Assembly (NCBI GenBank): GCA_002816455.1
Contig: MUCR01000019.1
Coordinates: 1-64,000, forward strand
Direction of reading: 5' to 3'
Source of the DNA: SAR202 cluster bacterium Io17-Chloro-G4
GTDB lineage: Bacteria > Chloroflexota > Dehalococcoidia > Lucifugimonadales > UBA3495
Length of the DNA stretch: 64,000 bases
The position numbers and the translations under genes are program-made. The notes beneath the pieces are model-generated. The model saw nothing but the letters and a program-made list of their open reading frames with translations, made no database searches and was not told the origin of the DNA. This document shows positions 22,944-25,437 of this stretch, in pieces (within the stretch, counting starts at the first letter, position 1; every line of letters begins with the position of its first letter).

Positions 22944-24146
22944 CTAGCTTGGTTGGACCACCTGGATTTGGCCATCGGGGCTGGCTGACAGCAAGGCGAA
23001 GAAGTCGTATCCCCGCCTGGTCAGTTCCTCCGAGCCGCCTTCTTTCCGGTCTAGGATTGCCGCAACCTTAACCACGGTGCAGCCAACCGCCTCGGCAGCC
23101 TCTATGGCTTGAAACAACGAGCCGGCAGTGGTGCAAACGTCGTCAACAATCGCCACCTTGCTCTTCGGCGGCAAAGGCCCCTCTATCCCTTGCCCGGTAC
23201 CATGCACTTTGGCCTCTTTCCGTACAATAAATCCGGGTATATTCTCCCCTCGCAGGCGGCTGGCAAAGGCAATGCTCGAGACCATGGGGTCTGCGCCTAA
23301 CGTTAGCCCTCCAACCGCTTCTGCTCCAGCTTGCAATAAGACAGGCAGCATAGCCTCAGCGATGAGTTGGGCGCCTTCGGGGTCCAAACTCAGCAGCCGT
23401 CCGTCGAAATAATAGCTGCTTTCTTTCCCAGAGGTCAGGGTAAACTTCCCATACTTGAGTGCGCCCCGCTCCAGCGCCACTTCTAGCAGCCGTCCGCGGG
23501 TAGGCGGCGCCGTCCCGACTGTGACCTTGTCCGAGGTCTCACCGTCCGCTTGGTAGAGGTGGTGTCGCTGCACATACTCGGACACGCCTCCCGGGAGGTA
23601 ATACCTGAGGGACATGCCTGCCTGGGCCCGTCGGCGAATTTCACTGGCGCTGATTCCCATGAGGGGCATGGAGAGCAAAGTAATTTTGCCAGCGGAACCG
23701 GGATAATCAGCCAAGAAACTGGCTTGGTCGAAGCCTTGATGGCCCGGCCTTTCCACCACAACCCAATGACACAAGTCAACAAGGGTTTCAGGATCCTTCC
23801 ACCCACTAAAGTGCTCCATAGCATCCAGACCCAAGATGAAGAACAACTCTGTGCCTGAACCTAAACTGCCCTTCATTGCTTTCAACGTATCGACGGTATA
23901 GGTCGGACCGGACCTCTCTACCTCATCAACGGACACTTGAAAGTGGGGATTGGAGGCGACTGCCAGGCGAACCATTTCCATCCGGTGGTGGGCCGAGCTT
24001 AGCGGCGTCCCGTCTTTTAGCCACGGCTGTCCCGCAGGCATAAATAAAACTTGGTCGAGGCCCAACTGTAGCCGGGCTTCTTCCGCCAGGGTCAGGTGGC
24101 CTAAATGCACCGGGTCGAATGTTCCCCCCAGTATCCCTATCCTCAT
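22944..24146 (-). CDS. Bifunctional NadD (nicotinate-nucleotide adenylyltransferase) - PyrE (orotate phosphoribosyltransferase) fusion
   Basis: 400 residues, two full enzymes in one frame. Residues 1 to about 200 are NadD: MRIGILGGTFDPVHLGHL, GPTYTVDTL, and ISASEIRRR in the C-terminal signature. Residues about 210-400 are PyrE: ALKYGKFTLTSGKESSYYFDGR, GADPMVSSIAFAS, and the PRPP loop VAIVDDVCTTAGS. The reactions are adenylation of nicotinate mononucleotide (NAD synthesis) and PRPP plus orotate to OMP (UMP synthesis). The start is the ATG one base after the obg stop, not the track's upstream start. The junction reads through without a stop. I know of no common NadD-PyrE fusion. Confidence 0.93.
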   Translation of the reverse strand: MRIGILGGTFDPVHLGHLTLAEEARLQLGLDQVLFMPAGQPWLKDGTPLSSAHHRMEMVRLAVASNPHFQVSVDEVERSGPTYTVDTLKAMKGSLGSGTELFFILGLDAMEHFSGWKDPETLVDLCHWVVVERPGHQGFDQASFLADYPGSAGKITLLSMPLMGISASEIRRRAQAGMSLRYYLPGGVSEYVQRHHLYQADGETSDKVTVGTAPPTRGRLLEVALERGALKYGKFTLTSGKESSYYFDGRLLSLDPEGAQLIAEAMLPVLLQAGAEAVGGLTLGADPMVSSIAFASRLRGENIPGFIVRKEAKVHGTGQGIEGPLPPKSKVAIVDDVCTTAGSLFQAIEAAEAVGCTVVKVAAILDRKEGGSEELTRRGYDFFALLSASPDGQIQVVQPS

Positions 24147-24147
24147 C

Positions 24148-25437
24148 TCAGAACCACTCGACCTCGTACCGCCCGATTTGAATAGTGTCGCCCGCTTCAA
24201 TGCCCAGGTCGGCCAAACGGCGGGCCAAGCCTTTCTTCGTCATCTCCCGCCATAGCTGGAGGATCACACGTTGGTCTCGTAGGTCTACCATGGCAGCCAT
24301 GCGTTCAAGTTCTTCTGACTCAATTCTGTAAACGCCGAGGTCTTTATAGACCAATTCCTGGGCTGCCGGACGGAGTGGCCTATGGACGGGCTCAGTAATA
24401 TTATCTACCGCGTCCATTTCTTCAACTTCGATGGAAAGATACTCGACAATCTTTCCTAATAACTCGGGTATGCCTTCCCCTGTGACTGCGGAGATAAACA
24501 GGATGGGCACATCAGTTCCGGCCTCCCCTTCGTCCAGCGCCTCTCTTAAAAAGAATTCTATCTCTTCTCGCTTGTCACGGACTTCTGTGACGTCAATTTT
24601 ATTAACGGCTATCACTTGCCGTTTGTTGGAAAGGACATCGCTGAACATGCGCAGCTCGTTGTTCAGCATTTTCAAGTCAGCAACGGGGTCTTCCGCTAAG
24701 CCGTCGATAACGTGGGCATAGATACGCGCTCGCTCCGCATGACGCAAGAACTCGTGCCCTAACCCAATTCCTTTATGCGCGCCCTCCAACAGCCCGGGGA
24801 CTTCCATCATCACAAAGTCTTTTCCGTGACTAGACACAGCCCCCAGAACCGGCTCCACTGTGGTGAATGGATAATCGGCAATTTTAGGCTTCGCTCCTGA
24901 GCATCGAGAGATCAGCGTAGACTTGCCCGCGTTTGGACGGGCAAGCAATCCCACATCCGCAAGTAACTTTAGTTCCAGGAAAAGGACTTTAGCTTCGCCC
25001 TTTTCACCTCTTTGAGCCAATACGGGTTCTTGGTTGGTGGAGGACAAGTACCGCGTATTTCCCCAGCCCCCTTGCCCCCCTTGGGCCACCAGGTGGGGCG
25101 TGGGATCAATGACATCCGCTAGGAATGTCCTTTCGCCATGTTCGTCTTGTGTATAAATCTGAGTACCTAGTGGAACTTTGACGTAGAGGTCAGGCCCATT
25201 ACGGCCCCGTTGATCTTTTCCTTTACCATGCGCTCCAGCTTCCCCGTACATCGTGCTGTTAAACTTCAAATGGAGGAGCGTGTTGTAAGAAGCGTCACCA
25301 TAAATGTAGGCGCTACCCCCATTCCCACCGTCACCGCCATTGGGGCCACCCATGGGCTTATACTTTTCCCGCAGAAAACTTATGCACCCGTTACCTCCGC
25401 TACCGGCTCTTATGTTTAATCTAACTGTATCAATCAA
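24148..25437 (-). CDS. obg: GTPase Obg (CgtA)
   Basis: 429 residues with three Obg parts: glycine-rich N-terminal fold (RAGSGGNGCISFLREKYKPMGGPNGGDGG), G domain, and C-terminal OCT domain (LGVYRIESEELERMAAMVDL). G1 is RPNAGKST, G4 is NKID. The G3 motif reads EVPGLLEGA, with Glu where the family nearly always has Asp. Obg helps 50S ribosome maturation and stress signalling. The start is TTG without a clear ribosome site; the residues after it match the family start. It is translationally coupled to nadD-pyrE, an order seen (obg next to nadD) in several phyla. Confidence 0.95.
   Translation of the reverse strand: MIDTVRLNIRAGSGGNGCISFLREKYKPMGGPNGGDGGNGGSAYIYGDASYNTLLHLKFNSTMYGEAGAHGKGKDQRGRNGPDLYVKVPLGTQIYTQDEHGERTFLADVIDPTPHLVAQGGQGGWGNTRYLSSTNQEPVLAQRGEKGEAKVLFLELKLLADVGLLARPNAGKSTLISRCSGAKPKIADYPFTTVEPVLGAVSSHGKDFVMMEVPGLLEGAHKGIGLGHEFLRHAERARIYAHVIDGLAEDPVADLKMLNNELRMFSDVLSNKRQVIAVNKIDVTEVRDKREEIEFFLREALDEGEAGTDVPILFISAVTGEGIPELLGKIVEYLSIEVEEMDAVDNITEPVHRPLRPAAQELVYKDLGVYRIESEELERMAAMVDLRDQRVILQLWREMTKKGLARRLADLGIEAGDTIQIGRYEVEWF

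Follow-up and report, generated by a model that had tools for sequence, protein, structure and literature searches.

Related fusion proteins

Adenylyltransferases acting on NMN or NaMN are joined to a further domain in NadM-Nudix, in NadR and in the proteins covered by PRK07152, a NadD model of 361 positions which covers more than NadD. To our knowledge, the partners in NadD-type fusions are nucleotide hydrolases (hydrolase-like, Nudix) or kinases, and not a phosphoribosyltransferase. The fusions of orotate phosphoribosyltransferase (OPRT, PyrE) of which we are aware, including those in model libraries, have as partner PyrF of the same pathway, as in UMP synthase and the PyrE-PyrF proteins (3qw4, PRK05500).

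In the window (the whole stretch of DNA analysed, 64,000 nucleotides from SAR202 cluster bacterium Io17-Chloro-G4), nicotinate-nucleotide adenylyltransferase (NadD) and PyrE are encoded in a single frame. The product resembles NadM-Nudix, NadR and PRK07152 in carrying a domain in addition to the adenylyltransferase, and PyrE-PyrF in that PyrE is fused to another nucleotide enzyme. However, PyrF catalyses the pathway step that follows PyrE, whereas NadD is an enzyme of a different pathway and PyrF here has its gene elsewhere. No OMP decarboxylase domain was found in the fused chain, which sets it apart from UMP synthase. PRK07152 matched the NadD part only, with 125 bits against a cut-off of 315, and none of the curated library models matched by the fused protein spans both NadD and PyrE. 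No earlier description of a NadD-PyrE fusion was found in the open literature searched. The novelty that the first-pass annotation saw in this pairing is consistent with the fact that neither the curated models nor the open literature searched contained it, but channelling, which had been considered conceivable, does not follow from it. The architecture is real and has evolved repeatedly; it is apparently undescribed, and mechanistically a modest surprise.

The fused gene and its domains

The nadD-pyrE frame runs on the minus strand from an ATG at 24146 down to a TAG ending at 22944 and specifies 400 amino acids with no internal stop. The features of the locus are:

22944..24146, minus strand: fused nadD-pyrE gene, 400 codons plus TAG
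23547..24146, minus strand: NadD domain, residues 1-200, with the GGTFDPVHLGH nucleotide-binding motif at 7-17 and ISASEIR at 165-171
23496..23546, minus strand: linker, residues 201-217 (17 residues), disordered in the model, with no in-frame ATG, GTG or TTG
22983..23495, minus strand: PyrE domain, residues 218-388, with the RKEAKVHG catalytic loop at 309-316 and the VDDVCTTAGS PRPP motif at 334-343
24148..25437, minus strand: obg/cgtA GTPase gene, upstream neighbour of the fused gene, in the same order in relatives

The ATG with which the fused gene begins comes one base after the obg stop codon and was taken as the natural start; an alternative upstream start, a TTG at 24200, falls within obg.

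The frame had been read as holding both enzymes, apparently complete and with their catalytic motifs, and the equivalog models of both agreed with this in passing their cut-offs. The NadD half scored 216 bits over residues 2-200 with the NCBIfam equivalog model NF000840 (cut-off 150) and 184.6 bits with TIGR00482 (cut-off 112.45), while the PyrE half scored 134.8 bits over residues 223-388 with the NCBIfam equivalog model TIGR00336 (cut-off 106.8). A whole NadD domain is present; unlike the proteins described by the curated NadD model, which covers NadD alone, the fused protein adds a C-terminal PyrE. The OPRT domain has both the catalytic loop, with its Lys and His residues, and the PRPP-binding VDD motif, but in contrast to standalone PyrE it follows NadD and lacks an N terminus and start of its own. 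The best solved relatives of the NadD half were the NadD chains 5db4, 4ymi and 4s1o. The closest solved chains of the PyrE half were OPRTs, with which RKEAKVHG and VDDVCTTAGS could be aligned. GGTFDPVHLGH and ISASEIR, which correspond to the GGTFDPxHxGH and C-terminal (S/T)xxxxR-type nucleotide-binding motifs of NadD, are mostly invariant across ten fused proteins. Based on these similarities both activities, NadD and PyrE, are predicted for the fused protein.

In the fused protein of genome G014 (locus L004) the PyrE catalytic loop reads VRTGTRTHG, compared with VRKEAKVHG in the window protein. Both loop lysines are gone, and in at least this one fused protein PyrE may thus be altered, or its function impaired.

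Operon context and distribution

The tandem obg-nadD-pyrE is conserved across the order, and a stop codon between nadD and pyrE is the common state. The obg gene was located upstream of nadD in 93 of the 109 loci examined, some of which repeat a genome, the remaining loci being cut off or without obg; pyrE usually comes shortly after nadD in these loci. A gap of about 730 bases between nadD and pyrE, with room for one inserted gene, was observed in L124 and L126 (G100 and G104).

The taxonomic spread, which the first-pass annotation had proposed to map, was surveyed among Chloroflexota: ten genomes, all of the class, have the stop-free frame. Nine of these (G000, G001, G014, G144, G145, G147, G148, G150 and G186), each with a single match spanning both enzymes, were counted among 250 genomes of the order in the matches listed, and the tenth, G300, belongs to another family of the class. 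No further fusions were found at the thresholds used among 393 genomes of the class and 400 of the phylum. In the listed genomes from outside the class that matched both enzymes, nadD and pyrE lay apart and were not fused, and nadD was not seen within about 4 kb of pyrE in nine non-Chloroflexota loci. Long open frames in G033, G170, G214, G216, G217, G219 and G222 were rejected as fusions, since direct reading revealed the nadD stop before pyrE.

Origins of the fusion

In a tree of concatenated NadD and PyrE, the fused state had to change four times or more on branches with good support; these origins lie in the window's family (two genera), in one distant family and in another family (two genera). 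A single origin of all fused proteins was rejected (p-AU 0.0003). Separate tests rejected one origin for family f1 with f85 (1e-5) and, in family f36, one for its two genera (4e-46); a shared origin of the two fused f1 genera was compatible with the data (p-AU 0.64). A fusion already present in the ancestor and then lost many times is a formal possibility but a less probable one, given that nadD and pyrE are out of frame in many unfused relatives.

Within genus g73, two members, G146 (L086/L091) and G149 (L087/L089), are unfused beside five fused congeners, and the fusion or fission in this genus is on that account regarded as recent.

Probable formation and function of the fused protein

Very probably, the gene encodes a genuine single-chain bifunctional NadD-PyrE which arose by stop-loss fusion of operon neighbours, with domains that most likely work independently. 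The stop codon between nadD and pyrE would have been lost within the obg-nadD-pyrE operon that is conserved in this Chloroflexota class, joining the two in frame through a flexible linker, and the fusion would have been fixed in a near-neutral manner. Ancestral neighbourhood of nadD and pyrE behind obg, together with repeated stop loss, is a simpler cause of the fusion than channelling. Since OPRTs dimerise, PyrE is expected to do so here, which would give a dimeric product with two NadD domains. Physiologically, the chief consequence would be obligatory 1:1 synthesis of NadD and PyrE, rather than channelling.

NadD converts NaMN and ATP to NaAD and PPi, and PyrE converts orotate and PRPP to OMP and PPi. 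Both reactions release PPi, and PRPP is drawn on by PyrE and by the step forming the NadD substrate. Since neither enzyme makes the substrate of the other and there is no common intermediate, substrate channelling is unlikely. AlphaFold modelled the fused protein (mean pLDDT 91.9) as two domains of high confidence joined by a linker that is unstructured at residues 202-212 (pLDDT below 50); with a pTM of 0.56, no defined mutual arrangement of the domains can be derived, which also speaks against the channelling considered earlier.

It is unlikely, though not negligibly so, that the fusion was selected for coordination, NAD and pyrimidine synthesis being coupled through PPi or PRPP status or by dependence of one domain on the other. 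The same fusion arose separately at least four times, more than a single accident would account for, and the established enzymology of PPi release and PRPP use would offer a link. Adjacent in-frame genes can, however, fuse repeatedly without selection, some members of g73 are unfused, the two enzymes share no intermediate, and the linker is disordered and fast-evolving, with no defined interface in the model. There is only a slight chance that the repeated fusion is adaptive, in the sense of a cross-pathway enzyme not described before in which fixed stoichiometry or PPi/PRPP cross-domain regulation coordinates NAD and pyrimidine output.

With the stop-loss fusion, the known metabolic fusions would gain a bifunctional enzyme that bridges two pathways. 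The lineages also provide a natural replicate series, comprising at least four fusions, sister lineages that are unfused, and forms in which an internal start has or has not been kept; with it one can ask whether neighbouring genes of an operon become fused through neutral loss of the stop or through selection. Fusion-based ("Rosetta stone") inference in annotation would probably read too much into the pairing of NAD with pyrimidine metabolism in this case.

Of five fused genomes checked for OMP decarboxylase, four (G000 and G001 included) had it, on contigs other than that of the fused gene. Full-length or strong partial matches to NAD synthetase were obtained in G001, G186 and G300, and matches to the quinolinate phosphoribosyltransferase family in G001, G014, G186 and G300. 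In G000 both enzymes gave no more than weak matches, consistent with the incompleteness of this genome.

Possible internal initiation of pyrE

A further reading, that the stop was lost but pyrE remained autonomous, PyrE also being translated alone from an internal start, is highly improbable as a general account. It draws on the fused linkers of family f36, which keep an ATG (genus g73) or TTG (g78) with a purine-rich, ribosome-binding-like stretch in front, as in GAGGGAGAAATG of L055 and AAGGAGAAGGACTTG of L048. The retained start and the purine-rich stretch suggest that internal initiation of PyrE may persist there. By contrast, downstream of NadD the window gene has no in-frame ATG, GTG or TTG before residue 223. 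Its first start-type codon after NadD is the GTG at that residue, which lies inside the first helix of PyrE (residues 215-226 in the model) and is not preceded by a ribosome-binding-like sequence. Lacking a linker start, the window gene could hardly give a separate PyrE. The linker of G014 likewise contains no start codon. Start-type codons near the junction in G300 are limited to a TTG among the final residues of NadD and a GTG within PyrE.

In genus g73, the fused frames of L055, L052, L057, L060 and L077 retain an ATG in frame close to where pyrE would be expected to start; in L055, L052, L057 and L060 this ATG was read directly, with the purine-rich stretch before it. Judged from these sequences, full-length and PyrE-only products may coexist in g73.

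Copy number and selection

No second copy of nadD or pyrE was found in the window's genome, a metagenome-assembled genome which is 71% complete; the one other match to either half was marginal (E 0.1) and was to another protein. Unfused copies could lie in the missing parts. Against this speaks the congeneric G001 (95% complete), in which no extra nadD or pyrE was detected and the one locus is fused. Intact separate copies, named with the first-pass annotation as evidence against the fusion, were therefore not encountered in either genome.

The fused frame of G001 is 80% identical to that of the window. Synonymous change between the two is saturated (dS 1.4 in NadD and 1.3 in PyrE), and with dN/dS values of 0.09 (NadD) and 0.05 (PyrE) this points to strong purifying selection on both halves as one frame. 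The linker, with a dN/dS of 0.40, evolves much more freely, yet remains in frame. A junction stop, the other objection foreseen, is lacking in the window gene, and the stop-free frame is conserved in G001 as a second species. Removal of a real stop or frameshift by sequencing or assembly error, which the fragmented and incomplete state of the window's genome might suggest, is for practical purposes ruled out by the separate congener G001, which shares the fused frame although synonymous sites are saturated; stop-free frames occur in eight other genomes as well.

In addition to the operon copy, G017, G028 and G033 of genus g2 have another PyrE-like gene, which is diverged (36-39% identity).
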